Source: Candidatus Raymondbacteria bacterium RIFOXYA2_FULL_49_16
Lineage (GTDB): Bacteria > Fibrobacterota > OXYB2-FULL-49-7 > XYB2-FULL-49-35
DNA length: 23,419 bases
Direction: 5' to 3'
NCBI GenBank assembly: GCA_001789205.1
Contig: MFYT01000103.1
Location: 1-23,419, forward strand
Below the pieces are notes generated by a model that saw nothing but the letters and a program-made list of their open reading frames with translations, had not been told where the DNA came from and searched no databases. A program made the translations under genes and the position numbers. Every line of letters starts with the position of its first letter. Within the stretch, counting starts at the first letter, position 1. Positions 4,373-22,913 of the stretch are shown here, piece after piece.

Positions 4373-4389
4373 ATTCCAGGAAACGAGAA
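4373..4389 (-). promoter_or_regulatory. Candidate enhancer-binding-protein site (weakest copy)
   Basis: The plus strand reads ATTCCAGGAAACGAGAA, which fits the WTTCT-N7-GAGAA element seen in the other intergenic regions, but with a less AT-rich centre. It begins 63 nt beyond the -24 box of the promoter at 4295-4310, the same placement as the better copies. Alone it would not be convincing. Confidence 0.4.
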
Positions 4390-4487
4390 CACCTATTAGC
4401 GCTATTAAGAATTCCGCCATTAACCCCTATAATATTGACTTACATAAGTATTGGTCCAAAAAGTAACCTATGGCCCGGTGCTAAGAT

Positions 4488-7400
4488 TTATTCTTCGATC
4501 ACTATCTCCACAACGTGCTCCTGATGGTCGTCGTTGAGTGTTACTGACCGGTCTTTTCGCTCCACGCCGTCAACAATCACGCGGATCCCCTTGCCCGGTT
4601 TTACCTGATGAAACCCGCAATGATACACAGTCTCTCTGAAACGGTAGTGGACCTTGAAATGTTCCCACTCCGCGGGAATGCAGGGGTTGAAAGTGAGCGT
4701 ACCGGCTTTCAATTGCACACCCAGGACATACTCGACGATGAGCCGGTACATCCATGATGCGGACCCGGTATACCATGTCCAGCCTCCCCGCCCGGTGTGG
4801 GGTTTTGATCCGTAAATATCCGCTGCCATGACATAGGGTTCCACCAGGTATTGCGCGGCTTTCTCCCTGGTTGATCCATGGTTGACCGGATTGATCATGG
4901 ACAACAGATCGTGTACCTGCTGCACCTCCCCCATTTTTGCGAAAGCCATGACAGACCAGATTGCCGCATGTGTGTACTGGCCGCCGTTTTCCCTGACACC
5001 GGGAACATATCCTTTTATATACCCGGGTTCCTGCGCGGATTTGTCAAAGGGAGGGTCCAATAACCTGATCATACCGTTTTGAAAATCAACTAAAAAGCGC
5101 GCAAGGGAACGCATGGCCTGCTGTGATCGCCCGAGTGATCCTGCCCCGGACAAGACCGACCAGCTTTGCACGGTCCCATCTATTTTACACTCTTCATTGT
5201 GTGAGGAGCCGAGGGTGGCGCCATCGTCGCAGAATGCCCGTAGGTACCACTGCCCGTCCCAGGCCTCGGATTCGATTTTTTTCCGCAGCAGTTGAGCTGC
5301 CTCGGCGCACGCTTGGCCAAAGGCCTGGTCCCCGCGCGTCAACGCCAGTGGACCAAATTGTTTGAGAACCGTAAAAAGGAAGAACGCCAGCCACACACTC
5401 TCTCCCGTGCCTTTGGCGCCCACAAGATTCATGCCGTCGTTCCAGTCTCCGCTTCCCATGAGAGGCAGCCCATGCTGGCCAAACCGCAATCCATGCAGAA
5501 TTGCCTGCTTGCAATGCCCGTACAATGTGGCCTTCTGGCGCGTTCTGGCCGGAAGATCATAGAAGGACTCTTCTCCGGGATTAAGAAGACGGCTATCAAG
5601 AAAATGCGTGGTCTCATCCAGAATACCGCTGTCGCCTGTACGGGCTACATAATCGCCCGTGACAAAAGGAAGCCAGAGGTAATCATCTGAAATCATAGTG
5701 CGCACACCGCGTCCTTGGGGGGGGTGCCACCAGTGTTGCACATCGCCCTCGGGGAATTGGCGGGAAGCGCACAGCAGCAGGTGCTCACGGATTAGTCCCG
5801 GCTGCGTATGGACCAGCGCCATTACATCCTGGAGCTGATCACGGAACCCGAACGCACCCCCGGACTGATAGTATCCACTCCGGGCCCATAAACGGGCGGC
5901 CATGGTCTGGTACACAAGCCAGCCGTTTGCCATCACATTCATCGCACCATCCGGCGTTTCGATGGTAATGGCGCCTAACGTATGCTTCCAGAAACTCCAG
6001 ACGCGATCGCGGGCGTCATACGCGGACTGTACACCCTTAAACCGGCGGACCAGGTTCCGGGTTTCTTCTACGTCCTTTCCAACACCCAAGATAAATACTA
6101 TCACCTTTTCCTGTCCCGGCTTCAGGTCAAAATAGACCTGGAGCGCAGCGGCGGGATCAAGTCCGATACCGACCTTGCCTGACAACCGGGTCCGGTGCAG
6201 GGCCGCGGGATCCGCGAGCGTGCCATTTCGCCCGATAAATTCCGTTCTATCCCCGCAGATGCTTCGATTGGCCTCGCTTACCTCAAAAAATACGACGCGG
6301 CCCGGGAACTCCGTGTTGAAGGGATTGCTTGCCAGCAGCGCGCCTGTTTTCGAATCGATCCCGGTCCGTATGTGCATCCGGGTCTTGGAGCGGTTTTCGC
6401 CCAACACAAGTTCCAGAAATCCCGTTGCCGATACCTTGCGGGTAACGGGAGAGCCGTTGCGCACCCGAAGCATCCAGAATTTGACAGGAGCGTCCACGTC
6501 AGCGTACATCCACAACTCCGACTTGAGACGGTATTGCGAGTACTCAAAAACGCTGTACCCGAAACCATGGCGGTTGAGATAGGCCCCGGCTCCAGGAGCG
6601 GGCAGCGGTGTTACGGACCAGAATCGCCCGGAACTTTCGTCACGCAGATACACGGCTTCGCCGCTTCGGTCGCTTACCGGGTCGTTATACCATGGTGTTA
6701 TCCTGAATTCATGCGCATTCTCGAACCACGAATACCCGCCGCTTTGCGAAACAACTGTGCCGAATTGCCTGTTCGCCACAACATTCACCCAGGGCATGGG
6801 TGTGGGATTTCCCTGGTCTATCCGGATGATATACTCCCTGCCGTCGCGCGTGAACCCGCCCCATCCGTTAAAAAAGAGCAGGTTGTCCTGCCGGAAATTC
6901 TCCGGTGCAGGCAGGATACTCTCGTCCCGTGATGCGACAAATTTCGGAACAGGGGTCTCGCCGCGGAAAACCCGCTCAACCTGCTCCGAAAGCATTCCGC
7001 CGCTATCAGTAAAAACCACCCGCGCGGCGGCCAGCATAAGCATCTGGTCCTCGTCCGGCATCTGATCCGGGTGACGCAGAAACACTCCGCCTGTTTTATC
7101 GTACAGGGACGCCTCGGGACCGACGGCGATCAGGCCGATGAGCTGGTCATTAAATATCTGCCGGTACCCGGTACGTTCTTCGTTCCAGATGATAAGATCA
7201 ACCGCCAATCCCATCAATCGCCAATAGGCGTGCGCCTGAATCAGTTTCGCCGCCAGCTCAATTTTAGAAGGGTCGCCGATTCGCAGCAAAACAATGGGCA
7301 GGTCGCCTGAAATACTGTACGCCCATAAATGGGATTGTCCTCGCGCATTTTTCAGAAGCACGGTCTGATCGGCCCTGCGATAGAGGCTGGCATAGAGGAT

Positions 7401-10400
7401 TGAGCTCGCAAGAGTTCCGTACAACCGGGCGTCAGGTTCAGTGGCATTGAGTTGCCGGAGCAGCACGTTCGCATGTATCACCGCCAGATTAAAAACCCGG
7501 TCCGCCAGTTCCCGGTCCTGATATTTTTCGATGAGCGCTTCAGCCTGCGGCCTGGTTTCGGCCATGCCGGTGATATAGCCCACGGTAACGCTCTTGCCCG
7601 GCCCAATGGTCAGCCTGCATCGGATGGCGGCAATAGGATCGAGCACCGGCCCTTCTGTTCCGCCAAGCGGTCCGGGCCTTTCCATAGCCCTGGGCTTTCT
7701 TGTTGACAAGCCTCTCCCGATGAACGCAAGCCGGTCGGTCTCGTACGAAAGATCGCATCCATCGAGGCCGCGTGGCGTGAAAAGGTGGAACATCCAAGGG
7801 CATTGTTCCTCAGGCGACCGCGGCCTTCGGGAACAGAGGACCGCATGACGCTTCCGGAGAATCTCTGTCTGCACAAACAGGTTCGAAAACACGGGGTGCG
7901 AAGCGTCGGCCGCGGGCGGGGCCAAGACCACCTCAGCGTAGCTGGTGAGTTCGACGGTCCGGGACACGCCGGTGAGATTGCTTAGCGTGATGCGTCGGTA
8001 TTCAATATCATCTTCAGGCGAAACCGCGATCTCAGTATAGGTATCCAACCCCCCATCCCGCCGCCTGAACTCGGCGCGGGCCAGGGGAAAAACAGCTTCA
8101 TAATTTTTTGACTCAACGCAGGAGGGCTGAAAAGCCGCGGACCATTGCCGTGCGGCGGACACGTCGTTGACATAGACAAAGGCCCCGCAATCATCCATGG
8201 TCGGGTCTTCGTTCCAGCGAGTTACGGTGAGATCGCGCCACCGGCTATACCCGCCACCCGCATTGGTCACCATTACATGGTAATTGCCATTCGACAAAAG
8301 ATGGACTTCGGGTATGGTTGTATGGGGAGTGGTGAAAATCCGCAACACATCTTCCTGCCCCGGGGGAATTGTCCTCGAACGGAAAAGTTCAGATGGCTGC
8401 ATGAGAAACGGGGACGCCTTTGGCACGCGTTCCTGAAGCAAAAGAGTCGTGGTCCGGAAGAGCGGATCTGACTCGAATCGTTTTGTCATGGGATCACCGG
8501 CGATGGTGTTGACCAGTGAGACAAAACTCATACCCTGATGATGCGCCATGAACGACCGGATCAGGGCCGGGGAATGGCCGTTGGACAGCCGGCTTTGCGT
8601 AAAATCTATCGCCTCGTACAAGCCATACCTGCCTTCGTATCCATCGGCGGCAAGCCGCTCCATGTTTTCGCAGGCCTCTTGCGGTTTGACCATTAGCGCA
8701 AGCGCCGAAGAGTATGGGGAGATCACAAGGTCATTCGCCAATTCCCGCTTAAACCCCAGGTCTGGCACGCCAAAGGAGCGATACTGGTAGTTCAGGCTTG
8801 TATCGGTGCTGTTTTCGGCGGATTCCGAAATGCCCCAGGGCACGCCCCGTATTTTCCCATATTCAATCTGCCGGTCCACAATGGCCTCACAGGTTTGGCC
8901 CAGCAATGTGTTGGCATATCCGGGCATCACTAGCCGCGGCATCAGATACTCGAACATAGAGCCGCCCCACGAAAGCAGGATCGTTTTGCCCCGCCGGATT
9001 GTGATCAGGCGGCCCAGACGGAACCAATGTTCCAGGGGAAGCTTACCGCTTGCTATTCCGATGAAGCTTCCCAGCCGTGATTCGGACGCAAGAAGGTCGT
9101 AATGGCCCTCATCGCGCCTCCGTTTAGCAACATCATATCCTATGACAAGCAGGTTGCGTGAGGTGTCGTACAGCAATTCATAGTCCTGGTCAGCCAGGCC
9201 CTGACACTGGCCGGCCATCTGTTCAAGTTGTGTTATCCGTTCCTGCGCACAGCCGATTCCCAGTATAACCTGCTGTTCAAGAACGCCACGAAGACGCGGA
9301 AGGATTTCCCGCAACAGCGCCATGCTTCCAAGCGTACGATTGTCATCCAATTCCTGTCGAATCAGCGGATCAATGTCTGGGGGGGCCTCTGTCGCAAGCC
9401 AGGGCGCAAGGTAGAGCAGTTCGTCCCGCTGGTCAATGCAGCGGCCCTCAAACGCATTAAACCACCACCGGGCCTCGTCCCCTGCCGCGCGTTCCGCTGT
9501 CAATACCCGCAGTTCATTGATCCGGGTGAGTATGTCGCGGATGCGTTTCAGCGCTAATTCCAGGCCGCACGGCGTTTGTTGGCACTCACGCAGGATTGCC
9601 GCGAGTGACTGTATCCGCATCACACTTTCAGGGTCTTTATCTATTGCGGGAAGGAGGTTTTCCTTGAAGACATCCAGCGTACTGAGGAGACATTCAAAAA
9701 CCTGTTGTTGAAATATCGGTTTATCGGCCAATTCTACCAACCCAGCCCTGAGTGTCAACAGGTAGCCAGCCAGATTGCCGCTATCGACAGTGGAGATATA
9801 GTGCGGCGCCATGGGCTGGAGGGTCTTGGTATCGTACCAGTTATAAAAATGACCCTTAAACCTGCTCATCGCCTCCATGCTTTTTATTGTCTTGCCGGTC
9901 TTTTCAATCAATTGCGCCTGGCCCAGATAGCCCATATCATACGCGCCCAGGTTCGACAGAAGCATCAGGCCAATATTTGTCGGCGATGTTCTATGGGCAA
10001 CGGCCTCGCGGGGTGTTTCCTGATAGTTGTCCGCCGGAAGCCAGTTGTCCTCGGGCCCGGCGAATATTTCGAAATAGCGCCAGGTCTTGCGGGCTATTTT
10101 TTTAAGAAAATCCATCTGTTTAATGGAAAGCCGCGAGGGGCGCGGAACCACGCGCCTGCTGATCCACCACGAAAAAAGAGGCGAAAAAAACCATACCCCA
10201 AGCATGGGCAACACATCCGGCCGTCCCTGGGCCATGAAGTAAGCGCCCAGCAACAGGGCGCACAACGGAGCAATGGCCATGGATCGAATATACACCCGGA
10301 GTCCCCCGCATCGCTCGCGCTTGGCTTTTTCGGAGTCCGTCCATTGTAATAGTTTACGCCGTGATATCAGCATCCGCCAGCATGTGCGCATGATCGCATC

Positions 10401-13043
10401 GAGGTTGGAGAACGCCTCATACGGAAGTACGGCCAGCTCGAAACAGGCCTGAAAAACCCGGAGGCACATGAACCCGCCAATGGACCTGGCATGCGGATAC
10501 AATGGAAATCGAGGAGGGATCTGCGCCGCCTTAAGCACCACCGCAGGCGCGGACGGCAGCAGGAGGACTGCGGCAGCCACCGCGATTCCCAGCCAGGAAG
10601 GTGCGATAAAGAGCCAACTCACTACTATCAACAGCAGCATTCCCGCTGGGACCAGGCTCCGCCTAAGATTGTCAAAGATCTTCCACCGTGATACAGCCGA
10701 AATGGGGTTTTTAACTGATGCAAGCCTGAACCCGGGCACAAGGGGTTGCAGCCATGCCGCGATCTGCCAGTCGCCCCGTATCCAGCGATGGCGTCGCACG
10801 CGCTCATCCCTATAGTGTTCCGGGAATTCATCAACCATCTGCACATCGCTGACAAACCCCGACCTGCAGTAGGTGCCTTCCAGAAGATCGTGGCTCAAAA
10901 TCCGGTTTTCGGGCAGCCGTTTTGCCAAGGCCATGGCGAACATATCAACGTCGTAAATGCCCTTGCCAATGAAGGAGCCTTCACCGAATACGTCCTGATA
11001 CACATCCGAGACAGCGCGGGTATAGGGATCAATTCCTGAATCGCATCCGAAAAGACGGGAATACCATGAAGCGCCAATCGCGGGCAGGCTTGAAACAACC
11101 CTCGGCTGCAAAATCGCGTAGCCATCCACAACACGCCCTTTCACGCGGTCATAGACGGGCGCGTTGAGCGGATGGGCTATGGCCTCGATCAAGTGCCGTG
11201 CGCAGTCACGGGGCAATTCGGTGTCTGTATCGAGCGTGAGAACATATTTGATATCAGGCGCTATCGTACCATCGCCTTCAATAAGAAACCCGGTTTTCTC
11301 CCGCGAACGCAGGAAACCGTTCAGGGCTTCGAGCTTTCCTCTTTTTCGTTCATAGCCCATCCACCGCCGTTCACGCGGGTTCCACTTCCGTGGACGGTGA
11401 AAAAATAGAAATGGCCGATGCCCGTCACGAGCGTAGGTGTCGTTGAGCTGTCGCATGCCATCCCTGGCCAGTTCCAGCAGCGCCGCGTCGCCAGGCATGG
11501 TTTCCGCCTGTGCGTCCTCAAAATCAGTCAACAGGCTGAAGTATACGTTCGCGGCGCGATTGGACAAATAACATACCTCCATTTTATTCAGGAGCCCAGC
11601 CACAGCGCGGTGGTCCGCGAGCATGGCCGGCACGGTAATCAGGGTGCATGATTCTCTCGGGATTCCCGGCAAAAAGTCCATTTTAGGAAGCGATCGCGGC
11701 ATGATCACGAGGGTGATAGCCCAGTTTACAAGCGACACGGCCGCCTGGCTAAATCCGATGACCATCAGGACACCCGCGACCCAGAGCGTCATTGCGCTCG
11801 CGCCATGCGTTTCCCGCAGAACAATACCGGTGAAGACGACGGTGACAAACGCCAACGATCCCAGATAAAACAACAAAGGCGCTTTGTTACATAGGCGGTT
11901 AAGCGCTTCTCTTCTTGTCAGCCTAACGCCCAGAATGCGCTCCAGCACCGGCCGCTGACGATCGACCAGATAGGCGCCAACGTGGGCTGTTCTCGATCCG
12001 TATTCCGCGCTCCGGGCCAGGGCGACCGTTTGCGCCGCGACATGTTCCTCGGTCGTATGGCTTTGCCGGGCCATCTTTTCGATCACATGCCGGTAGGTGT
12101 CTCGTGTGGTAAAATCCATTTTCGGATACACCCCGGCTGGATCTTCGCGGAGAAGAGCTTCCACCTGGCTCATCTCCTCGACAAAACATTGCCAGTTGAT
12201 TGAGGTCAAAAACCTGAGGCTGGTGATGCTATTTCCAATGGCAATGTGGTTAATCGCCTGCTGCTGACTGTCTAGGTGCACCTGCCGTTCAATCGTCTGC
12301 CCCTGTTCGGTCAGACGCTGTTCTATCCAGGTTAAAACCAGAGCGAGCGCCGGATTATGGCTCTGAAGCTTCCGTACTAGCTCCGCTATATAGGCGCAGC
12401 TCATTGGAATGTTGGCGCGCGCCATGTCTGCTATGTCAAGTATAATGTTTTTGGGGTCCTGTTCAGCTGTCTCAAACATTCTGGCGGCCCAAAAAACAGC
12501 CACAGCGCGGTCTTGACGGCCCACCGCAATTCTCGCCGCAATATGTCCCAGATTTTCTATGAGTGCAAGCCGCACCATAATGGGAATGGCCCATAACTCC
12601 CCCAATTTCAGCGGCGTCACCCGCTGGTACGAGGAAATAATAGTGCGGAGATTGGCCTCATCAACACGCCCGTCAACATGGAAGATCAGTTCACGGACAA
12701 TCTCGTACACACGGGGCAGACCCGCCGAAGGCCCTGCACGGAGACGGGGCAGTTCGCGGCTATAGTGCTGGGGAAGATGCAGACGGACCAGCTGGATTTG
12801 TTCCTTTATCAGGTAAAAATTGTCCTGAAGCCATATGCCCGCTGGGGAAATACCGCCTTTGGCCGCCTCCCCATCTGTGAGTTGCCGGTAGACCTCGGAC
12901 AGTTTTCTTTCATTTTCGGTTAACCGTATCAACAGTTTTTCGCGAACGGGACGGTGGTCCAGTTCATGCAGCCGTGCCATTGCCTCGCCCTGTTTGTCGA
13001 GCTGGTCACTGCTGAAGAGATCACTCAACAGAGGATAGTCCAA
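4488..13043 (-). CDS. ndvB: Cyclic beta-1,2-glucan synthase (NdvB/ChvB-like)
   Basis: This 2851-residue inner-membrane enzyme matches the usual NdvB/ChvB length (about 2830). Family members polymerise UDP-glucose, cyclise the chain and export a periplasmic beta-1,2-glucan. Domains seen: a helical N-terminal region (1-385); membrane helices at about 390-455; a glycosyltransferase (GT84) region with DTD at 605-607 and HRWIRGDWQ around Trp754; further membrane helices at about 800-840 and 920-965; a glycoamylase-like domain (about 985-1530, WGISESAE at 1403-1410), which performs cyclisation in this family (GH189); and a GH94 phosphorylase-like region with beta-sandwiches near 1575 and 2055 and an alpha-barrel carrying GDWNDG at 2532-2537. 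The frame given begins with TTG at 13041-13043 and lacks a good ribosome site. An upstream ATG at 13139-13141 is one base out of frame (see findings). It is a single-gene unit with a sigma-54 promoter at 13203-13218. Confidence 0.93.
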   Translation of the reverse strand: MDYPLLSDLFSSDQLDKQGEAMARLHELDHRPVREKLLIRLTENERKLSEVYRQLTDGEAAKGGISPAGIWLQDNFYLIKEQIQLVRLHLPQHYSRELPRLRAGPSAGLPRVYEIVRELIFHVDGRVDEANLRTIISSYQRVTPLKLGELWAIPIMVRLALIENLGHIAARIAVGRQDRAVAVFWAARMFETAEQDPKNIILDIADMARANIPMSCAYIAELVRKLQSHNPALALVLTWIEQRLTEQGQTIERQVHLDSQQQAINHIAIGNSITSLRFLTSINWQCFVEEMSQVEALLREDPAGVYPKMDFTTRDTYRHVIEKMARQSHTTEEHVAAQTVALARSAEYGSRTAHVGAYLVDRQRPVLERILGVRLTRREALNRLCNKAPLLFYLGSLAFVTVVFTGIVLRETHGASAMTLWVAGVLMVIGFSQAAVSLVNWAITLVIMPRSLPKMDFLPGIPRESCTLITVPAMLADHRAVAGLLNKMEVCYLSNRAANVYFSLLTDFEDAQAETMPGDAALLELARDGMRQLNDTYARDGHRPFLFFHRPRKWNPRERRWMGYERKRGKLEALNGFLRSREKTGFLIEGDGTIAPDIKYVLTLDTDTELPRDCARHLIEAIAHPLNAPVYDRVKGRVVDGYAILQPRVVSSLPAIGASWYSRLFGCDSGIDPYTRAVSDVYQDVFGEGSFIGKGIYDVDMFAMALAKRLPENRILSHDLLEGTYCRSGFVSDVQMVDEFPEHYRDERVRRHRWIRGDWQIAAWLQPLVPGFRLASVKNPISAVSRWKIFDNLRRSLVPAGMLLLIVVSWLFIAPSWLGIAVAAAVLLLPSAPAVVLKAAQIPPRFPLYPHARSIGGFMCLRVFQACFELAVLPYEAFSNLDAIMRTCWRMLISRRKLLQWTDSEKAKRERCGGLRVYIRSMAIAPLCALLLGAYFMAQGRPDVLPMLGVWFFSPLFSWWISRRVVPRPSRLSIKQMDFLKKIARKTWRYFEIFAGPEDNWLPADNYQETPREAVAHRTSPTNIGLMLLSNLGAYDMGYLGQAQLIEKTGKTIKSMEAMSRFKGHFYNWYDTKTLQPMAPHYISTVDSGNLAGYLLTLRAGLVELADKPIFQQQVFECLLSTLDVFKENLLPAIDKDPESVMRIQSLAAILRECQQTPCGLELALKRIRDILTRINELRVLTAERAAGDEARWWFNAFEGRCIDQRDELLYLAPWLATEAPPDIDPLIRQELDDNRTLGSMALLREILPRLRGVLEQQVILGIGCAQERITQLEQMAGQCQGLADQDYELLYDTSRNLLVIGYDVAKRRRDEGHYDLLASESRLGSFIGIASGKLPLEHWFRLGRLITIRRGKTILLSWGGSMFEYLMPRLVMPGYANTLLGQTCEAIVDRQIEYGKIRGVPWGISESAENSTDTSLNYQYRSFGVPDLGFKRELANDLVISPYSSALALMVKPQEACENMERLAADGYEGRYGLYEAIDFTQSRLSNGHSPALIRSFMAHHQGMSFVSLVNTIAGDPMTKRFESDPLFRTTTLLLQERVPKASPFLMQPSELFRSRTIPPGQEDVLRIFTTPHTTIPEVHLLSNGNYHVMVTNAGGGYSRWRDLTVTRWNEDPTMDDCGAFVYVNDVSAARQWSAAFQPSCVESKNYEAVFPLARAEFRRRDGGLDTYTEIAVSPEDDIEYRRITLSNLTGVSRTVELTSYAEVVLAPPAADASHPVFSNLFVQTEILRKRHAVLCSRRPRSPEEQCPWMFHLFTPRGLDGCDLSYETDRLAFIGRGLSTRKPRAMERPGPLGGTEGPVLDPIAAIRCRLTIGPGKSVTVGYITGMAETRPQAEALIEKYQDRELADRVFNLAVIHANVLLRQLNATEPDARLYGTLASSILYASLYRRADQTVLLKNARGQSHLWAYSISGDLPIVLLRIGDPSKIELAAKLIQAHAYWRLMGLAVDLIIWNEERTGYRQIFNDQLIGLIAVGPEASLYDKTGGVFLRHPDQMPDEDQMLMLAAARVVFTDSGGMLSEQVERVFRGETPVPKFVASRDESILPAPENFRQDNLLFFNGWGGFTRDGREYIIRIDQGNPTPMPWVNVVANRQFGTVVSQSGGYSWFENAHEFRITPWYNDPVSDRSGEAVYLRDESSGRFWSVTPLPAPGAGAYLNRHGFGYSVFEYSQYRLKSELWMYADVDAPVKFWMLRVRNGSPVTRKVSATGFLELVLGENRSKTRMHIRTGIDSKTGALLASNPFNTEFPGRVVFFEVSEANRSICGDRTEFIGRNGTLADPAALHRTRLSGKVGIGLDPAAALQVYFDLKPGQEKVIVFILGVGKDVEETRNLVRRFKGVQSAYDARDRVWSFWKHTLGAITIETPDGAMNVMANGWLVYQTMAARLWARSGYYQSGGAFGFRDQLQDVMALVHTQPGLIREHLLLCASRQFPEGDVQHWWHPPQGRGVRTMISDDYLWLPFVTGDYVARTGDSGILDETTHFLDSRLLNPGEESFYDLPARTRQKATLYGHCKQAILHGLRFGQHGLPLMGSGDWNDGMNLVGAKGTGESVWLAFFLFTVLKQFGPLALTRGDQAFGQACAEAAQLLRKKIESEAWDGQWYLRAFCDDGATLGSSHNEECKIDGTVQSWSVLSGAGSLGRSQQAMRSLARFLVDFQNGMIRLLDPPFDKSAQEPGYIKGYVPGVRENGGQYTHAAIWSVMAFAKMGEVQQVHDLLSMINPVNHGSTREKAAQYLVEPYVMAADIYGSKPHTGRGGWTWYTGSASWMYRLIVEYVLGVQLKAGTLTFNPCIPAEWEHFKVHYRFRETVYHCGFHQVKPGKGIRVIVDGVERKDRSVTLNDDHQEHVVEIVIEE

Positions 13044-13189: not shown

Positions 13190-13206
13190 TGCTCATAAAT
13201 AGAGCA
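13190..13206. promoter_or_regulatory. Perfect inverted repeat over the ndvB promoter -12 region
   Basis: TGCTC-ATAAATA-GAGCA is a perfect 5-bp inverted repeat with a 7-nt AT-only spacer. It has the same geometry as the candidate activator site at 21924-21940 but GAGCA rather than GAGAA arms. It covers the -12 element (13203-13205) and the predicted start of the ndvB transcript, a position typical of a repressor or autoregulatory site. Function is inferred. Confidence 0.4.
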
Positions 13207-13218
13207 GTATTCGTGCCA
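13203..13218 (-). promoter_or_regulatory. rpoN promoter: Sigma-54 promoter of the cyclic glucan synthase gene
   Basis: The minus strand reads TGGCACGAATACTGCT. The -24 box TGGCACG is a full consensus match, the -12 box CTGCT has one mismatch, and the GG-GC spacing is exactly 10 nt. The predicted transcript starts near 13192, about 50 nt before the ATG at 13139-13141 and about 150 nt before the TTG at 13043. Confidence 0.78.
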
Positions 13219-13293
13219 ATCAACCGGGGTTTGGGTTGGACGTCACACCAGTCCATTCTCCATTTCGTACTGGTTTACGCTTATGAGAAATTC

Positions 13294-13310
13294 TTTCTTA
13301 TTATTGAGAA
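13294..13310. promoter_or_regulatory. Candidate enhancer site shared by two divergent sigma-54 promoters
   Basis: The plus strand reads TTTCTTATTATTGAGAA, matching the element at 16454-16470 and 21924-21940. A further TTATGAGAA half-site sits just to its left at 13281-13289. The element lies 76 nt from the -24 box of the ndvB promoter and 65 nt from that of the plus-strand promoter at 13375, so one bound activator could serve both. Confidence 0.55.
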
Positions 13311-13374
13311 TTATCAGGGTAGGCCGCGCATGTTTTACTACCCAAGACGCGCGGACTTTTGCACTATTCATAAG

Positions 13375-13390
13375 CGGCACAGCAATTGCT
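13375..13390 (+). promoter_or_regulatory. rpoN promoter: Sigma-54 promoter of the 13449-14395 unit
   Basis: The sequence CGGCACAGCAATTGCT matches the -24/-12 consensus at all but the first base of TGGCAC, with 10 nt between GG and GC. The predicted start is near 13401, leaving a leader of about 48 nt before the ATG at 13449. Confidence 0.78.
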
Positions 13391-15707: not shown

Positions 15708-16304
15708 TTAAAAAAGGACACTTATTCCCAGACTGTATTTTCCCGGATTTCCCGCGTCAACCGTTCTGAGCAGCGTCTGAACATTGAGGTCCAGCATAAG
15801 CTGCGCTGACGAGGTACGGAAAAACGCTATGCCAGCGGACCCGCCGGCCGCAAAACCAAACGCGGCGTCAAAATCAGGCTTTTTAGCAAGGGCAAGCCCG
15901 AAATCAAACCCAAGGAAGGGGGAAATATTCGTTCGTGTCAGGTAAAAGTTGGAGCCGATCGTGGCCGCGAGAAAAAACGCGGGAGCGGAAAAGTTAAACA
16001 CATTGTCTGATTTGAACTTGATGGCCGCCCATGGCGCCACTTCCCAATAATGCGCGTAGTGAAACAAATAAGCAACCCTGTTCGAAGACACTCCCCATAA
16101 CCCTGCTGGCCCAAGTCCCAATGCCATATATTTTTTCGCGGTAATTCTTCGTGCAATCTGCGTTTCCTCTTTGTTTGAAATGTCTCCTACCGCCGGACCC
16201 TCATGTGACGATGTTGAATCCCGGACACCCTCCGCCTGTAAGAACGCCGCGGCGCCAATAAACACAATCCAGATGCAAACTAAAGGCAGTAAAGGCTTGA
16301 ACAT
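15708..16304 (-). CDS. Predicted outer-membrane protein
   Basis: This 198-residue protein has a signal peptide (about 1-24, ending FLQA) and a short polar Ser/Glu-rich segment. Glycine- and aromatic-rich strands then run to a terminal SVLF, consistent with a small outer-membrane barrel. No family is recognised. AGGAG lies 7 nt before the ATG. It is the first gene of a two-gene unit with the propeller gene at 14433. The upstream gap carries a strong sigma-54 promoter (16371-16386) and a candidate activator site (16454-16470). Confidence 0.7.
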   Translation of the reverse strand: MFKPLLPLVCIWIVFIGAAAFLQAEGVRDSTSSHEGPAVGDISNKEETQIARRITAKKYMALGLGPAGLWGVSSNRVAYLFHYAHYWEVAPWAAIKFKSDNVFNFSAPAFFLAATIGSNFYLTRTNISPFLGFDFGLALAKKPDFDAAFGFAAGGSAGIAFFRTSSAQLMLDLNVQTLLRTVDAGNPGKYSLGISVLF

Positions 16305-16370: not shown

Positions 16371-16386
16371 TGCAATAATGATGCCA
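16371..16386 (-). promoter_or_regulatory. rpoN promoter: Sigma-54 promoter of the 16304-14433 unit
   Basis: The minus strand reads TGGCATCATTATTGCA. Only the last base of TGGCAC and the purine after it differ from consensus, and the GG-GC spacing is exactly 10 nt. The predicted start near 16360 leaves a leader of about 56 nt before the ATG at 16304. Confidence 0.8.
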
Positions 16387-16453
16387 GAAACCCCGCTCGT
16401 TACACTGCATTAAAGGGCAAAAAACAGGCCCTCTCTTTGCGCCCGCCCAATAC

Positions 16454-16470
16454 ATTTCTATTTATGAGAA
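16454..16470 (-). promoter_or_regulatory. Candidate enhancer-binding-protein site
   Basis: The plus strand reads ATTTCTATTTATGAGAA. The ATTTATGAGAA half is identical to the one at 21930-21940. It begins 68 nt beyond the -24 box of the promoter at 16371-16386 and so would be centred about 100 nt upstream of the transcript start. Confidence 0.6.
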
Positions 16471-16543
16471 TCCATGTCTTAAAAATGAATCCCCATAGAA
16501 AGTATGATTGCATGTTTCCTGGACCGCATACCCTCAAAACCGC

Positions 16544-18316
16544 TCAGCGGCTGGTATATGAATACCGTAGGATAAGCCGGTGTTCAGACTCCTTTTTTTT
16601 GCCTAAGACCTGAATATCGCAGAAAGAATAGGTGTACTGGTAGTCAAGGGTGACAACCCGTGAAATCTGCCAGCTCAGAATGCTGATTATATCGAGTTTT
16701 GGCATTCCACGGTTTTTCGCTGGAACAATAGGCAGAAAGAGGCGGACTTCCGACTTTGCCGTTGCCCTGCCGCCGACACGGACATCCAGAACAGCCGCTG
16801 CTTCGGGGCCAATGGCGTTTTCGGTCATGGCGGATATGGGCATAAGGACGGTACTCCTGGATATCTGCAACGAATCGCTTTGGCGTACCGCGGCCGGAAT
16901 GGTCGATACGTCGACTATTTCGTAATACTTTCGCGTATGGATGAATTCATACGCAAACCCAGTGCGCAGCCGGGCGTCCACATACCGCACTTTAACCAAG
17001 TCCATGTTCGCACCCACGCTACCGGTAAGTTCGGTTGGAGAAAAAGAAGGCTCCCGTTCGCGCGGAGCGCTGATGGTATCATACTGGTCCCTGTATCCGT
17101 TGTCATTGAGAAGATAAAAAAACGGTTTATTGTTGATTTGGTCGGGAAACACCCGTTTGGGGAAGATGGTGGAAGTGGCCTCGAAACGGCCATAGGGACC
17201 AAACCACGATAAAACCCGCCAGATAAAAAGCGACGTAAGCCGCGGTTCATCGATATTGGGTTCAATAACCGTCTTGCCGGGATTAGTGAGGCTTATCTCC
17301 GACAGCGCGAATCCTTCATCTAATTTTAAACTGGTACTCCAGTTATACGGAGGTTTTTCATAGCGAAACCATGAATTGAGCAGCACAGCGATGGTTGAGG
17401 TCGTCGTGTTGTTTGCGTTTTGCAGATGATCGACTTTTGCATTAAAAAGGATATTGCCGCCAATGTCTATCCCATACTTCCAATATGTTGCAAGGTTTTG
17501 AGGCGTTAAAATATCCACAATTCCGCCGCTGGTAATTTTATTGAAAGAGGCCGGGTCTTCAACAAGAATAAAATTTATTAACTGGCCAGGTAAAAGCCGT
17601 ACTGTCACGAAATTTTTCAGCGTATTGTAGTTTTCGCCCGGACCCATAATTTTATAGAGCCCTGGTTTTAGTATCCAGGTCTTGGTTTCTTCCCCCAGGC
17701 TGGGATCCGGGCCATAGCTGCGGCCAAAAGGCGCGAACGAATCAACGCGCGTAAGTTCGTATTCTCCGCGAAAGGCGATCCCGTTTTCATCCACGACATT
17801 GATGGACAGACCCGCCCAGCCGGGAACAATGGGCATGGACCTGCCTTCGGTTACATCGACCGTATGCACCAACCGCTGGTGTTGCGAACCGCTGCCATGG
17901 ATGACATAATACCGGCCTGGCAGCACCGCATAATTTCGACCCGTATTTCCCTCTCCAACAACAGTGCCGGCCGAATCAAGTATTTCCACAGCGGGTTCGA
18001 GGCCCAACTCGCTAAGCCGCGGAATAAAAATCGCCCCCTTGCCCACTGGAATATTGGTGTTGTCCGAAGCGATCTGCTGGGCCAGCGAAGGGGCTTCCCA
18101 GGTTTTTTCCGCCTCTTGAAGCCAGGTTGCCGGCGTTTTGGAGGCTGATGGCGGTTCCTTGACAGAAATGCTGTCGGGAGGCAGCAACCGCTGGAGGTAT
18201 TCACCGCTTATATCATCTCCGGGAAGGTCCGGGGGCTGGCTCGCAAACACACAGGCGCTGGCCAAAATAAAAACAGCGGGAAGCAACCGCGAACACCGAT
18301 GGATTGTATCGCGCAT
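16544..18316 (-). CDS. Predicted outer-membrane protein of the Mla/Mce-type operon
   Basis: This 590-residue protein has a signal peptide (about 1-26, ending VFAS). Next comes a Pro/Ser-rich linker, then about 75-250 with two beta-sandwich-like segments (AVEILDSAGTVVGEGNTG, VLPGRYYVIHG; LKPGLYKIMGPGENYN) resembling PEGA or carboxypeptidase-regulatory folds. The last 330 residues alternate amphipathic strands rich in Tyr/Trp/Arg (YWKYGIDIGGNILF, TLDYQYTYSF, HRLILRYSYTSR), suggesting a large beta-barrel. I recognise no named family. Its ATG lies 2 nt after the stop of the PqiC-like gene, so it is tightly coupled to the lipid transport genes. By context it may be the outer-membrane end of that transporter; this is inference. 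Confidence 0.7.
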   Translation of the reverse strand: MRDTIHRCSRLLPAVFILASACVFASQPPDLPGDDISGEYLQRLLPPDSISVKEPPSASKTPATWLQEAEKTWEAPSLAQQIASDNTNIPVGKGAIFIPRLSELGLEPAVEILDSAGTVVGEGNTGRNYAVLPGRYYVIHGSGSQHQRLVHTVDVTEGRSMPIVPGWAGLSINVVDENGIAFRGEYELTRVDSFAPFGRSYGPDPSLGEETKTWILKPGLYKIMGPGENYNTLKNFVTVRLLPGQLINFILVEDPASFNKITSGGIVDILTPQNLATYWKYGIDIGGNILFNAKVDHLQNANNTTTSTIAVLLNSWFRYEKPPYNWSTSLKLDEGFALSEISLTNPGKTVIEPNIDEPRLTSLFIWRVLSWFGPYGRFEATSTIFPKRVFPDQINNKPFFYLLNDNGYRDQYDTISAPREREPSFSPTELTGSVGANMDLVKVRYVDARLRTGFAYEFIHTRKYYEIVDVSTIPAAVRQSDSLQISRSTVLMPISAMTENAIGPEAAAVLDVRVGGRATAKSEVRLFLPIVPAKNRGMPKLDIISILSWQISRVVTLDYQYTYSFCDIQVLGKKKESEHRLILRYSYTSR

Positions 18317-18318
18317 TC

Positions 18319-18963
18319 TTATTGCACCCCGCGCTGCCCGTTAGCGCTGTCCAGGACTTGGTCCAGGTCGCCGACCACCTGATTCATGATGAATTCCATT
18401 ATCGACGACATCTCCTTGACCACGCTCTGCGGATCGTTTTTGAAAACACGTTTACGCTTGTCAAACCTGCGGCTGTACACTGTTTGTCCGTCCGACGTAC
18501 GGGTAAGCTGGAACCGCAGGGCCATGTGCGCGAACCACACCTGGTCGCTGTCGTATTCATCAATCGCCTCAATTGTCCCGCTGAGCTCAAAATCCGGCTT
18601 CTCGCCCCCGTCATACCTGCGGACAATGCCGCGGGCGATATCTACCGCGACAAGATGCTTGAAAATAAGATCGTTTATCATGCGGGCCGGTTTTACGGCC
18701 CATACCTGATAAAAGTAAAACTGGAGCTGATAGGCATTCTGACGGTAGACTATTTGCGGCCGGGCATAGGCCTCCTCAATGCTGAGGTCCTTCAGCCGGA
18801 TAATGGAGGGATACGGCGTTTCGTTCAAGCGGTTCTGCAGCGCCATGGGAATATAATTGAGTAAATAATATTTCTTCACTGGAACAATACCGCATCCGGC
18901 CATTACAAGGGCGGCTATAAGAAGGGTTAAAAACATGGGGGGCCGGGGGTATGTATTTTTCAC
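18319..18963 (-). CDS. PqiC-like ABC-transport auxiliary lipoprotein
   Basis: This 214-residue protein starts with a lipoprotein signal peptide whose lipobox is MAGC, with the lipidated Cys at 24. The body (about 29-200) fits the ABC-type transport auxiliary family (PF03886) that includes PqiC/YmbA: YYLLNYIP near the start, then I-x-x-YDSDQVWFAHMALRFQLT and VYSRRFDKR. Family members sit on the inner face of the outer membrane and accompany MCE proteins. Its ATG overlaps the stop of the MCE gene by four bases (ATGA at 18960-18963). The next gene begins 2 nt after its stop. Confidence 0.83.
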   Translation of the reverse strand: MKNTYPRPPMFLTLLIAALVMAGCGIVPVKKYYLLNYIPMALQNRLNETPYPSIIRLKDLSIEEAYARPQIVYRQNAYQLQFYFYQVWAVKPARMINDLIFKHLVAVDIARGIVRRYDGGEKPDFELSGTIEAIDEYDSDQVWFAHMALRFQLTRTSDGQTVYSRRFDKRKRVFKNDPQSVVKEMSSIMEFIMNQVVGDLDQVLDSANGQRGVQ

Positions 18964-19877
18964 GGCGTCTCCCGTTCTTTCTGCTGCTCGCCTTTCAGCA
19001 GCAGCGAGGGGTTTTCAGCAAGGACCTTGCTCAGTTCATTGGCGTTTTCAAGCGTTTCACGCAGATTTTCCATGGAGACCGTGATGTCTTCGCGCGACTG
19101 TTTTACAATGAACGATATGTCCTGAGAAAGCTGCTGCATGAATTGCGCGGTGGAATCAATGGAAGCCAGGATGCGCCCCATATTTCCCGAACCAAATGAC
19201 CGGTTCGTTTCGCCGGTAATTGATTTTACATCGCGCGAAATACTGTCCACGCGCGCTATAATGTTCTGGAAAGAGCCGGCTATGGTAACAAAATCGGGCC
19301 GCATAACAGCGAAAAACTGGCGCGCGTCTTCGCTGATGGCCGCGGTATTGTCCACAATCCTTTTTATTCCCTTGAGCGTATCGGGATCGGTAATTGCGTT
19401 GAGGTGGTTGAGCAGCAGTTCAATCTTTCCCATGATCACCTCAGCCTGGCCCGTAATGGTTGTCATCATCGACTTTTTCGTTGGAATGGCGGAGCCGGGC
19501 GGCAGACCGGGCGCTTCATTGGTCCCACCGAGCAGTTCCACATATTTGAGTCCCGTAATGCCCATGGCGCCGGTCTGCGCAACCATGTCGGTCTTTACCG
19601 GAAAATCCTCCTGGATTTTAAACGTGACCTTTACCCGGAGAAGATTCGCGGGATCGTATGAGATACGGTCCACCTTCCCTACCGGTACTCCATGAAATTT
19701 GAGAATCGCCCCCTGTTCAAGTCCCGAGAGCGACTCGCCTTCGAAACTCGCCCAGTATGTTTTCTGCTTGTCCACGAGTTTGAAACCAATGGGAATGGCG
19801 ATAAAGAAAAACAGGCAGACCGCCCCGCCGATCATAAATACGCCGAGCCGCGCCCTCTGTAATTTTGAGATGCTCAT
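18960..19877 (-). CDS. mlaD: MCE-domain lipid-transport protein (MlaD-like)
   Basis: This 305-residue protein has one N-terminal membrane helix (about 12-33) that anchors it in the inner membrane with the rest in the periplasm. A single MCE domain covers about 38-118 (SLSGLEQGAILKFHGVPVGKV, then GITGLKYVELLGG). A long helical region of about 145-290 with heptad-like leucines could form a coiled coil or bridge toward the outer membrane. In the Mla family MlaD is a hexameric lipid-binding ring on the transporter. It is longer than E. coli MlaD (about 183 residues), as in many non-proteobacterial homologues. The start overlaps the ATPase stop by four bases (ATGA at 19874-19877). Confidence 0.9.
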   Translation of the reverse strand: MSISKLQRARLGVFMIGGAVCLFFFIAIPIGFKLVDKQKTYWASFEGESLSGLEQGAILKFHGVPVGKVDRISYDPANLLRVKVTFKIQEDFPVKTDMVAQTGAMGITGLKYVELLGGTNEAPGLPPGSAIPTKKSMMTTITGQAEVIMGKIELLLNHLNAITDPDTLKGIKRIVDNTAAISEDARQFFAVMRPDFVTIAGSFQNIIARVDSISRDVKSITGETNRSFGSGNMGRILASIDSTAQFMQQLSQDISFIVKQSREDITVSMENLRETLENANELSKVLAENPSLLLKGEQQKERETP

Positions 19878-20671
19878 GCCACGTTCTCCACTATAAAATC
19901 GCTGGTCTCGTCCACGGCTTCCGGCGCCGCCAGTTCCCGGCGCGCGAAAAAGTCGTGCATGGGCCCATCGGGCGCTTTGCGGGCCTGGTCCTGGACGCCA
20001 CTGTACAAAACCGAACCTTCATGCAGAAATAAAATGGAATCCGCGATACGCTCGATTGATAACAATTCATGCGTTACCACGACAATGGTAATGCCCAGGG
20101 ATTCGCGAAGCGTGAGCAAAAGATCGTCAAGACCCGCTGACGTAACAGGATCGAGCCCGGCCGACGGTTCGTCGCAAAACAATAAGGGCGGTTCGAGCGC
20201 CAGCGCGCGTGCAAGGGCAGCCCGTTTGCGCATGCCGCCCGAAAGCTCTGACGGAAATAGATACGCGGCATTGGGTATGCCAACCTGCGAAAGTTTGATA
20301 TGGACCATTTCATCTATCACGTCCCGGGGAAGCGCGGTATGCATGGCAAGGGGCAGCGCCACGTTTTCTGCGATGTTCAGGCTTCCAAGAAGAGCGCCAT
20401 TCTGAAACAGCGTCCCGGCTTTTTTAAGCATGTCCACGCTCGCGGGAGAATCCTGGTCCGCCAGTGTATGGCCGAAAAGCCGGACAACTCCTGAAACGGG
20501 CGTAATCAGCCCCAGCAGTGTTTTCAGCAGTGTTGTTTTACCGCAGCCCGATGTGCCCAGAATCGCCGTGATGCGCGACGGCATGAATGCCGCCGAGACC
20601 GCTTTGAGCACCACATGCTCACCGTAGCGCACGGTTACGTTTTCCGCTTCGACAATGGGTTGCTGGTCCAT
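19874..20671 (-). CDS. mlaF: ABC transporter ATPase, MlaF-like
   Basis: This 265-residue ATPase powers the Mla-type phospholipid transporter. Walker A is GTSGCGKT at 39-46, the Q-loop is near Gln90, the signature LSGGM is at 143-147, Walker B LLFCDE at 163-168, and the switch His at 201. All catalytic motifs are intact. The open frame runs 52 codons further upstream inside the permease gene. I chose the ATG at 20669-20671 because TTGAGG precedes it and the homologous region starts there. It lies 7 nt after the permease stop and overlaps the next gene by four bases, in a tight operon. Confidence 0.93.
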   Translation of the reverse strand: MDQQPIVEAENVTVRYGEHVVLKAVSAAFMPSRITAILGTSGCGKTTLLKTLLGLITPVSGVVRLFGHTLADQDSPASVDMLKKAGTLFQNGALLGSLNIAENVALPLAMHTALPRDVIDEMVHIKLSQVGIPNAAYLFPSELSGGMRKRAALARALALEPPLLFCDEPSAGLDPVTSAGLDDLLLTLRESLGITIVVVTHELLSIERIADSILFLHEGSVLYSGVQDQARKAPDGPMHDFFARRELAAPEAVDETSDFIVENVA

Positions 20672-20678
20672 GTGTGCC

Positions 20679-21761
20679 TCAAATGATAAATGAAAATAAC
20701 GCGTCAGTAATGATGATAATGAATATTCCGGTGACCACACTTGCCGTGGTTTCGCGGCCCACAGCTTCCGCACCCCCGCGTACACGAAACCCGTAAAACA
20801 CGCCGACCCAGATGATGAGCCACGCAAAGACGATTGACTTGATTAACCCGGCCAGGACGTCTTTTATAAAAATATTCTGTGACAATTGGCTCCAAAAAAG
20901 ACTCGATGAGATATCAAGATACGCAAGTGATACCAGAAACCCGCCAAAAATTCCCGTGGCCGTGGACAGCATTGTGAGGATGGGCATGGTGAGCGTTATG
21001 GCCCAGAATTTAGGGACCACAACATACTGGATGGGGTTAATTCCCATTGTTTTCAGCGCATCGATCTCCTCCCCAACCATCATGGTCGCGATCTCGGCTG
21101 TTGTGGCGCTGCCGGTCCTGCCGGCAAGTATTATGGCCGTGAGAATGGGCCCCAGTTCCCTGATCATGGAAATGCCTATCATGGGCGCAAGAAAAATCCC
21201 TGCGCCGTACATGCGCAGCTGAATGGCGGCCTGGAGGGCAAGGACAATCCCGATGAGCATTGAGAGCAGGGCCACGATCCCAAGGGCTTTATACCCGAGT
21301 TGAAACATCTGCTCGCCAAGGGCCCCTTTTTTCATGTCCAGCTTTTTGAACGCGCCAATAGTGCCCCAATAGAACATTTCAGTGAGAACCGAGAGGGCGC
21401 TTGCCGCAACGCTGAAAACCGCGAGTGTCGCTGTTCCCACGGACGACGGGAACCGTTCCCCGAGCTTCACGGAAACAGCAGCCACGGGCTGGGGCACTGC
21501 GGTAATGGCCGACAGCATAGGCCGGGTGATGTTTCGGAGAATAATCTTCTGGTTGCTGCGTTCAAATGTTCTTTTCAGAACATGGACCAGAGAAATCCCG
21601 CTTGAATCAATATCTTTGACTCCTGCGAAGTCTAAAACAACCGGCTTGTCGTGCGAAAAACCTGCGGCAGGGCGGCTGCTGACCCAATCCCGGTTAAAAT
21701 GTTCCGGAAGCCGGATAATTGGCTCTGGTTCCAAGGACAATGATGAGTGAATGTCGGCCAT
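20679..21761 (-). CDS. mlaE: Mla-type ABC permease with N-terminal STAS domain
   Basis: This 360-residue membrane protein fuses a STAS-like domain (about 5-105, with VVLDFAGVKDIDSSGISLV) to an MlaE permease (about 110-360). The permease carries the family hallmarks RELGPILTAIILAGRTG and EEIDALKTMGINPI, with about five membrane helices. It would form the inner-membrane channel for phospholipid exchange with MlaF, MlaD and partners. In proteobacteria the STAS protein (MlaB) is usually separate; the fused form is common elsewhere. I chose the ATG at 21759-21761, preceded by AAGAGAGA, over an upstream GTG at 21818. It is the first gene of a five-gene unit. A sigma-54 promoter lies at 21845-21860. 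Confidence 0.9.
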   Translation of the reverse strand: MADIHSSLSLEPEPIIRLPEHFNRDWVSSRPAAGFSHDKPVVLDFAGVKDIDSSGISLVHVLKRTFERSNQKIILRNITRPMLSAITAVPQPVAAVSVKLGERFPSSVGTATLAVFSVAASALSVLTEMFYWGTIGAFKKLDMKKGALGEQMFQLGYKALGIVALLSMLIGIVLALQAAIQLRMYGAGIFLAPMIGISMIRELGPILTAIILAGRTGSATTAEIATMMVGEEIDALKTMGINPIQYVVVPKFWAITLTMPILTMLSTATGIFGGFLVSLAYLDISSSLFWSQLSQNIFIKDVLAGLIKSIVFAWLIIWVGVFYGFRVRGGAEAVGRETTASVVTGIFIIIITDALFSFII

Positions 21762-21844
21762 TGTCTCTCTTATCTTGGCATAACGGGTCACGGCTTCTAT
21801 TATAATAGAAACACGCACAGCCAGAGTCTACGCATATATTGTAT

Positions 21845-21860
21845 TGCAATAAACATGCCC
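21845..21860 (-). promoter_or_regulatory. rpoN promoter: Sigma-54 promoter of the Mla-type operon
   Basis: The minus strand reads GGGCATGTTTATTGCA. It keeps GGCA, TTGCA and the exact 10-nt GG-GC spacing. The predicted start near 21834 leaves a leader of about 73 nt before the ATG at 21761. Confidence 0.72.
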
Positions 21861-21923
21861 ATGTCATTAACACAATGCATTGGGGCCATTTGTATTCGCC
21901 AATATTATTATATTCAAGAATAC

Positions 21924-21940
21924 TTCTCGATTTATGAGAA
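21924..21940. promoter_or_regulatory. Candidate enhancer site between divergent sigma-54 promoters (best palindrome)
   Basis: TTCTC-GATTTAT-GAGAA is a perfect 5-bp inverted repeat with a 7-nt spacer and is the clearest copy of the element found in five intergenic regions. It lies 64 nt from the -24 box of the Mla operon promoter and 34 nt from that of the LapA promoter. Confidence 0.65.
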
Positions 21941-21973
21941 TATTTTCTATTGTATTGCCAGTATATAGGTATC

Positions 21974-21989
21974 GGGCATTTTTATTGCT
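21974..21989 (+). promoter_or_regulatory. rpoN promoter: Sigma-54 promoter of the LapA-domain unit
   Basis: The sequence GGGCATTTTTATTGCT keeps GGCA, TTGCT and the exact 10-nt GG-GC spacing. The predicted start near 22000 leaves a leader of about 41 nt before the ATG at 22041. Confidence 0.72.
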
Positions 21990-22040
21990 TGTTATCCAGA
22001 GATACAGGGTATTAACTCATTTTTAAAGAAGGGGGGTTCA

Positions 22041-22262
22041 ATGCCCCTAATAATAGCCCTGGTAGCTGTAACAGTTTTCTCCGTTATTGTGGCGCTTCAA
22101 AACGCCGCCTTGGTCACAGTGAAGTTTTTGGGCTGGCAGTTTGAAAACACCCTTGCCACCATGATCTTGCTGTCGTTTGCCCTGGGCGCAATTGCGGGCC
22201 TTTTGGTCGCCTTGAGATTCATGGTCAACAAAAACCGTGCGCCCAGCGCTGTGCGGCAATAG
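22041..22262 (+). CDS. LapA-domain (DUF1049) inner-membrane protein
   Basis: This 73-residue protein has two hydrophobic helices (about 2-20 and 40-62) separated by QNAALVTVKFLGWQFENTLA, the hallmark of the LapA/DUF1049 family. LapA works with LapB in controlling LPS assembly in E. coli, but this copy stands without a LapB partner in view, so the role here is open. AAGAAGGGGGG lies about 5 nt before the ATG. It is the first gene of a probable two-gene unit with the basic protein at 22304, with a sigma-54 promoter at 21974-21989. Confidence 0.85.
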   Translation: MPLIIALVAVTVFSVIVALQNAALVTVKFLGWQFENTLATMILLSFALGAIAGLLVALRFMVNKNRAPSAVRQ

Positions 22263-22303
22263 ACTAACGTTTACAGGTTTAATTTTTTAACGGAAGGACC
22301 CAT

Positions 22304-22588
22304 ATGGAAACCAATGAAAGCGTTGTGACAAAAAACGTACGGGAAACCGTGATCAAGGCTGCGGCAGGAATAGGCATTTTAAAAGCTAAGGTCAGCGAAA
22401 AATCAGCTCCATTGAGGAATACAATTAAAACTAAAACGCACGCCATTGCCCGGAATATTGAAGGAAAGCGCCAGAAAATTGAGTTCCAAGCCGGCACTGT
22501 GACTCACAGGGCGATCAAGACGGCAAAAGACGCCATGGTTGGTTTTAAGCAAGGAGTAAGCGAAGTTCGTTCCAGAAAAAAACTCTAG
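22304..22588 (+). CDS. Small basic helical protein of unknown function
   Basis: This 94-residue protein is rich in Lys, Arg, Ala, Thr and Val and strongly basic. It has no clear membrane helix and no signal peptide. Its pattern (RETVIKAAAGIGILKAKV, THRAIKTAKDAMVGF) suggests amphipathic helices, as in YtxH-, late-embryogenesis- or histone-like stress proteins, but I recognise no family. GGAAGG sits about 6 nt before the ATG. It follows the LapA gene by 41 nt on the same strand and is probably cotranscribed from the sigma-54 promoter at 21974-21989. Confidence 0.7.
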   Translation: METNESVVTKNVRETVIKAAAGIGILKAKVSEKSAPLRNTIKTKTHAIARNIEGKRQKIEFQAGTVTHRAIKTAKDAMVGFKQGVSEVRSRKKL

Positions 22589-22657
22589 CCGCCCTGCTGC
22601 GTGTTTCTGTTCCAATCTTGATAATGTTTTGAGTCAGAACCTCAATCAACCGCATGT

Positions 22658-22783
22658 TCACTTCTTTTTTTCCACGTCCATGCGGCCCAGAATCCTGGCG
22701 ATCTTGAGCATGCATAATACACTCACAACCACTATCGAAGTAACACCGAACAACACAGTCAAACACCTTTTCATCTTTTGCAT
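22658..22783 (-). CDS. 41-residue single-helix membrane protein
   Basis: This short gene is hidden under longer meaningless frames. It begins MQKMKRCLTVLFGVTS, continues with a hydrophobic helix (IVVVSVLCML, about residues 8-26), then has a charged tail KIARILGRMDVEKKK and a TGA stop. A perfect AGGAGG (22791-22796 on the complementary strand) lies 7 nt before the ATG. A strong sigma-54 promoter at 22817-22832 would start transcription about 24 nt upstream. Positive residues on both sides make orientation uncertain. I recognise no family. It is a lone gene, convergent with the 94-residue gene and divergent from the second OmpA gene. Confidence 0.7.
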   Translation of the reverse strand: MQKMKRCLTVLFGVTSIVVVSVLCMLKIARILGRMDVEKKK

Positions 22784-22816
22784 GCACATTCCTCCTATGT
22801 TCTTAAGTCCAGACAT

Positions 22817-22832
22817 GCAATAATCAGGCCAA
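22817..22832 (-). promoter_or_regulatory. rpoN promoter: Sigma-54 promoter of the 41-residue protein gene
   Basis: The minus strand reads TGGCCTGATTATTGCA. It keeps TGGC, TTGCA and the exact 10-nt GG-GC spacing. The predicted start near 22807 is about 24 nt upstream of the ATG at 22783. Confidence 0.72.
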
Positions 22833-22896
22833 AATGCGCTAGTAGATTGACAACCAGCGGGTTTACGCTCAAAACTTTCTCAAAACCAGTGCACGC

Positions 22897-22913
22897 ATTC
22901 TTAAAACAGAGAA
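22897..22913. promoter_or_regulatory. Candidate enhancer site between divergent sigma-54 promoters
   Basis: The plus strand reads ATTCTTAAAACAGAGAA, another copy of the WTTCT-N7-GAGAA element. It begins 65 nt beyond the -24 box of the promoter at 22817-22832 and ends 84 nt before that of the OmpA copy 2 promoter. Confidence 0.5.

Follow-up and report, generated by a model that had tools for sequence, protein, structure and literature searches.

A palindromic element at a subset of sigma-54 promoters in a Raymondbacteria genome, probably the upstream activating sequence of a GAFTSA-type response regulator

An 18-bp element with two-fold symmetry, ATTCTCA-N4-TGAGAAT (the consensus of sites from all contigs), lies upstream of a subset of the sigma-54 promoters of Candidatus Raymondbacteria bacterium RIFOXYA2_FULL_49_16. 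With a probability of about 0.88, this palindrome serves as the upstream activating sequence (UAS) for an enhancer-binding protein (EBP), a response regulator of GAFTSA type that controls a sigma-54 regulon with genes for envelope, stress and polysaccharide functions; the activator is most likely an EBP encoded on contig C98. The window, which is the whole stretch of 23,419 nucleotides that was analysed, is contig C103 of this genome (5.43 Mb in 112 contigs). The genome survey is based on pattern searches and fetched stretches, and the sigma-54 promoters are predictions throughout. A preliminary description of the window had interpreted a recurrent 17-nt sequence near these promoters as an activator site; this reading is supported in essence, now with a corrected register, a spacing rule and a candidate activator. 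A bare DNA motif is thereby developed into a putative regulator–regulon pair, with a site, a spacing rule, a candidate activator and partners and a target list, in a lineage without close sequenced relatives.

SIGMA-54 PROMOTERS AND THE ELEMENT IN THE WINDOW

The genome has a single copy of RpoN, located on contig C23, and 27 strong matches to AAA+ activators, which make up the EBP set considered here. A strict sigma-54 pattern has 49 matches in the genome as against 10 in the reversed control. Eight sigma-54 promoters are predicted in the window, with GG-N10-GC spacing at the targets (Table 1). Three of the five element-bearing regions (at 13.3, 21.9 and 22.9 kb) include a predicted plus-strand promoter (13375, 21974 and 22997) as well, so that the element sits between divergent promoters there.

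Table 1. Candidate activator sites and predicted sigma-54 promoters in the window.
Feature	Sequence	Position	Strand	Remarks
Candidate activator site A1	ATTCCAGGAAACGAGAAC	4373..4390		Palindromic 18-mer, centre 71 nt from -24 T of 4310(-)
Candidate activator site A2	ATTAGCGCTATTAAGAAT	4395..4412		Weak; 22 bp from A1
Candidate activator site B1	GTTTACGCTTATGAGAAA	13273..13290		Weak; 21 bp from B2
Candidate activator site B2	TTTCTTATTATTGAGAAT	13294..13311		Between divergent promoters 13218(-) and 13375(+)
Candidate activator site C	ATTTCTATTTATGAGAAT	16454..16471		
Candidate activator site D1	ATTATTATATTCAAGAAT	21904..21921		Higher score than D2; overlooked in the preliminary description
Candidate activator site D2	TTCTCGATTTATGAGAAT	21924..21941		20 bp from D1
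Candidate activator site E	ATTCTTAAAACAGAGAAC	22897..22914		Between divergent promoters 22831(-) and 22997(+)
Predicted sigma-54 promoter	TGGTACGATATTTGCT	4295..4310	-	Before BON-domain gene 3443-4261
Predicted sigma-54 promoter	TGGCACGAATACTGCT	13203..13218	-	Before cyclic-glucan-synthase-like gene 4488-13043
Predicted sigma-54 promoter	CGGCACAGCAATTGCT	13375..13390	+	Before Thivi_2564-family membrane protein, ATG 13449
Predicted sigma-54 promoter	TGGCATCATTATTGCA	16371..16386	-	Before gene 15708-16304
Predicted sigma-54 promoter	GGGCATGTTTATTGCA	21845..21860	-	Before MlaE-type permease/ABC operon
Predicted sigma-54 promoter	GGGCATTTTTATTGCT	21974..21989	+	Before LapA-domain gene 22041-22262
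Predicted sigma-54 promoter	TGGCCTGATTATTGCA	22816..22831	-	Target short, unnamed
Predicted sigma-54 promoter	TGGCACTGTTGTTGCT	22997..23012	+	Before OmpA-family paralog starting 23071

All five 17-mers described previously are present, and their 5' ends lie 63, 76, 68, 64 and 66 nt from the -24 T of the minus-strand promoters at 4310, 13218, 16386, 21860 and 22831, respectively, in agreement with the proposed spacing of 63–76 nt. GAGAA is the sole 5-mer occurring in all five 130-nt regions upstream of these minus-strand promoters. A 5-mer common to all five regions arises in 758 of 5000 dinucleotide-preserving shuffles, but in only 4 of 5000 when confined to a 22-nt band, and in 2 of 5000 within 14 nt.

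The exact form of the element needed correction, since TTCTC-N7-GAGAA, as read from the site at 21924, has 205 matches in the genome versus 182 in the control, with no clear enrichment. An initial pattern search tied to promoters yielded 12 matches, including four in the window and two others that accompany sigma-54 promoters of contigs C100 and C107; its reversed control yielded 12 as well, so that the search has no weight by itself. Expectation-maximisation motif discovery in ten sigma-54 upstream regions (from the window, C100 and C107), to which no positional information was supplied, produced a ATTCTCATAAATAAGAAT-like motif, whose palindromic form reached 139 compared with 104–114 in shuffles. 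When the width was set to 17, all ten sites were located 44–85 nt from the -24 T. The first output of expectation maximisation, a GC-richer motif of 12 nt, was rejected, as its margin over its own shuffles is smaller than that of the palindrome.

The earlier suggestion of a partial palindrome suited to a dimeric activator thus holds for dyad symmetry, but not for register, the 18-bp palindrome taking the place of the 17-mer. Likewise, the common orientation ascribed to all copies carries little meaning because the element is palindromic. The promoters thus have in common a dyad-symmetric upstream site at roughly -80 to -150, as expected of a sigma-54 UAS. As was pointed out previously, the window itself holds no EBP gene.

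Two other short sequences recur. One, AAACAGGCCCTCTYTTTGCG, which includes a sigma-54-like core (GG-N10-GC), is present in near-identical form at 16422–16441 in the window and near 8852 in L120; the copy on C107 faces a GGDEF gene and has the element upstream, and the window copy leads to no clear gene. Also, the 10-mer GGTTTACGCT is common to two promoter regions of the window (13272–13281 and 22860–22869).

TANDEM SITES

Second copies of the element at 4395, 13273 and 21904, 20–22 bp from the first, make three of the five window sites duplicated; site A is a weak match to the element. A second site at a distance of 20–23 bp occurs at 7 of 15 loci in this genome and at 5 of 12 loci in its relatives, whereas any other spacing band contains a second site at 0–1 loci. 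Six tandem pairs with the 20–23 bp spacing were found in about 1.07 Mb of sequence from this genome, a sample that includes overlaps and is non-random, being drawn mostly from around promoters and EBPs. Each of the six lies between genes and next to a sigma-54 promoter; the window has three, C100 one and C98 two. The spacing corresponds to two helical turns, as cooperating dimers would require.

SPECIFICITY FOR A SUBSET OF SIGMA-54 PROMOTERS

As to the proposed check on its frequency near sigma-54 promoters, the element proved specific to a subset of them. For a held-out test, the five window sites alone supplied a matrix, with which sigma-54 promoters elsewhere in the genome were scored; promoters found through the motif were left out, and a site was counted at p < 0.05 relative to the promoter's own shuffles. 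Using the palindromic form of this matrix, a site was found at 8 of 10 promoters on contigs C26, C98, C100 and C107, versus 2 of 20 on the remaining contigs (Fisher p = 0.0003). Contig C98 was picked for its EBP and strict sigma-54 promoters, independently of the motif. With the window matrix, the promoters at C107:9937 and L117:8727 have no significant element. The scores of two unrelated promoters of this genome, in L018 (C15) and L030 (C31), represent either chance matches or undetected targets.

A CANDIDATE ACTIVATOR ON CONTIG C98

The preliminary description recommended seeking an EBP whose own promoter carries the element. Among the 27 EBP loci scanned, the only one of this kind is on C98, where the element is present in two copies. 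The C98 EBP is a response regulator of 440 aa (L117:8862–10184, minus strand) with REC (PF00072), sigma-54 interaction (PF00158) and Fis-type HTH (PF02954, HTH_8) domains, all above cut-off. Upstream of its gene are a REC-only gene and then a predicted sigma-54 promoter (TTGGCGCGATAGTTGCT at L117:10707), and the two palindromes, at L117 10778 and 10799, are situated at this promoter of the EBP operon itself. Genes for a PAS-GAF histidine kinase and a CheB-CheR-PAS protein lie farther upstream in the same orientation. This REC-AAA+-HTH_8 regulator of C98 is most likely the activator acting at the element.

The C98 EBP has a GAFTSA loop instead of GAFTGA. Most of its homologs in other genomes (L229–L257) have GAFTSA or GSFTSA, and three have no match to the pattern used. 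By comparison with NCBIfam and the PDB, the protein belongs to the NtrC family but matches no named regulator: it is below the NCBIfam equivalog cut-off for NtrC, LuxO, AtoC, PEP_resp_reg, GlrR, ZraR and NtrX, and its best partial matches (LuxO, NtrC and AtoC) are all far below cut-off.

CONSERVATION AND ALTERNATIVE EXPLANATIONS

The closest genomes share no more than the phylum with this one, and its genus and family are not represented among them. A search of 60 genomes found strong homologs of the C98 EBP in 19, counting its own genome; those compared are 44–55% identical to the C98 EBP and at most 39% identical to any other EBP of this genome. In the relatives, the element (p ≤ 0.01) is found at 13 of 27 intergenic sigma-54 promoters located within 1.5 kb of the EBP homologs, some of these promoters being divergent pairs with one common site. 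Blind motif discovery in the relatives' regions only, with no use of the window matrix, yielded aTTCTCAaATtTGAGAAt (129.9 versus 75–95 in shuffles). Motif discovery on sigma-54 upstream regions, which had been proposed as a check, returned the palindrome both in this genome and in relatives, and the anticipated conservation is seen near C98 EBP orthologs in other families of the phylum.

Among the conserved genes behind the element-bearing promoters are the REC-only gene and genes for DUF2934 and rubrerythrin-like proteins and for a small 'VNYCGS' protein. Several relatives have two or three EBP homologs, and the element is absent from some of those loci. For the orthologous MlaE genes of relatives, the fetched flanks have no sigma-54 promoter and hence no footprint. 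When sigma-54 promoters of two relatives were chosen regardless of the motif, only a minority had the element, which is therefore no common property of sigma-54 promoters but the mark of a single regulator.

That regulator could be another of the 27 EBPs, with the C98 EBP being a target or sharing the motif. Several EBPs of this genome have Fis-type HTH tails, and the C70 EBP has one weak copy of the element upstream (12.1), although no sigma-54 promoter is in the right place there. However, no EBP but that of C98 has both the element and a sigma-54 promoter in front of its operon, and in relatives the element is again found near orthologs of this EBP, as judged by the identities given above, which makes a different EBP improbable. 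A non-EBP protein acting at the same promoters, such as a repressor, an IHF-type global bending protein or another co-regulator, is less probable still. Divergent promoters are often occupied by several factors, and, according to established knowledge, a position upstream of the promoter suits a bending protein also; nevertheless, dyad symmetry and tandem copies 21 bp apart are unlike the sites of a general bending protein, and the element is conserved near the orthologs of one EBP and absent from most other sigma-54 promoters. Chance similarity in AT-rich intergenic DNA, with which the unclear genome-wide enrichment of TTCTC-N7-GAGAA and the equal numbers of true and control matches in the first promoter-linked search would agree, is strongly disfavoured, being contradicted by the shuffle, held-out, tandem-spacing and cross-genome tests.

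PROPOSED MECHANISM AND COMPARISON WITH KNOWN SYSTEMS

By analogy with established knowledge of NtrC-family proteins, dimers of the C98 EBP would bind the 18-bp palindrome, often at two sites 20–23 bp apart on the same face of the DNA, with the bound palindromes centred about 60–100 nt upstream of the -24 box. Phosphorylation would then promote oligomerisation of the EBP into a ring, and the DNA would form a loop. ATP hydrolysis would remodel the sigma-54 RNA polymerase, thereby activating promoters on one or both sides of the element. The operon of the C98 EBP would itself be in the regulon, enabling autoregulation. The inducing condition is presumably envelope or starvation stress.

Like NtrC, ZraR, AtoC, NtrX and LuxO, the C98 EBP has a REC-AAA+-HTH_8 architecture and a putatively autoregulated operon, and the element resembles NtrC-family UASs in having palindromic sites near -100, tandem sites and a sigma-54 promoter. 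The NtrC site motif is TGCACC-N5-GGTGCA. The C98 system differs from NtrC in its motif, in GAFTSA for GAFTGA and in its targets, and the C98 EBP differs from the named NtrC-family EBPs in that identities of 44–55% are found only within its own group in the phylum. The PEP-CTERM response regulator (TIGR02915, PrsR) is likewise a sigma-54 EBP tied to polysaccharide genes, and Bac_transf sugar transferases are encoded on C107 and at the EBP locus of one relative; the score of the C98 EBP for this family is 313.5, below the cut-off of 502.6.

In Desulfovibrio vulgaris, DVU3305 (general stress) and DVU3381 (envelope stress) have sigma-54 regulons (PMC4641369; PMC3333781). These are similar in that response-regulator EBPs control their own operon together with stress or envelope genes, but the organisms and the targets are different. 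In a comparison limited to running text, TGAGAA does not occur in PMC4641369, nor do GAGAA and TTCTC in PMC3333781. A literature search found no published report of this motif as an EBP site.

PREDICTED TARGET GENES

The predicted targets in the window comprise genes for a BON-domain protein with partial similarity to OsmY, a cyclic-glucan-synthase-like protein, a Thivi_2564 membrane protein, an MlaE-type operon, a LapA-domain protein and an OmpA paralog. Elsewhere in the genome, the predicted targets are a BON gene on C100, GGDEF and STAS genes on C107, genes for an AI-2E-type transporter and a DUF6600 protein on C26, and superoxide-reductase-like, PEP-utilising-enzyme and DUF2934 genes on C98. 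Judging from these gene families, the target set looks like an envelope, stress and polysaccharide regulon, and this agrees with a published account in which the cell exterior is the domain of sigma-54 (PMC3162934). If this set holds, a stress and envelope programme would be under sigma-54 control, and a likely regulon is now assigned to many small genes of unknown function.

More tentatively, one GAFTSA-type EBP together with sigma-54 might direct a phylum-wide regulon for envelope and stationary-phase stress, in the role that RpoS or SigB has elsewhere. Such a regulon, which is less likely than not, would include OsmY/BON-like, OmpA, periplasmic glucan, superoxide-reductase-like, polysaccharide and c-di-GMP genes.

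The element does not mark BON genes in general. A BON-gene cluster of Deltaproteobacteria ES-bin-228 (L084, 827 and 6645) has sigma-54 promoters with a different common upstream motif, CCGTCRCATRTGACAG ... AAAYATGACGGATT, so another EBP may control a similar set of genes there.

The product of 4488–13043 in the window is a cyclic-glucan-synthase-like protein of 2851 residues, in which two GH94 supersandwich stretches accompany a GH94 catalytic domain, a glucoamylase-like domain and a weak match to a glycosyltransferase. OmpA-family paralogs are located at both ends of the window (15–1646 and 23071–23419) and share 78% identity across 114 residues; the second one is truncated by the contig end, probably because the contig stopped at a repeat.
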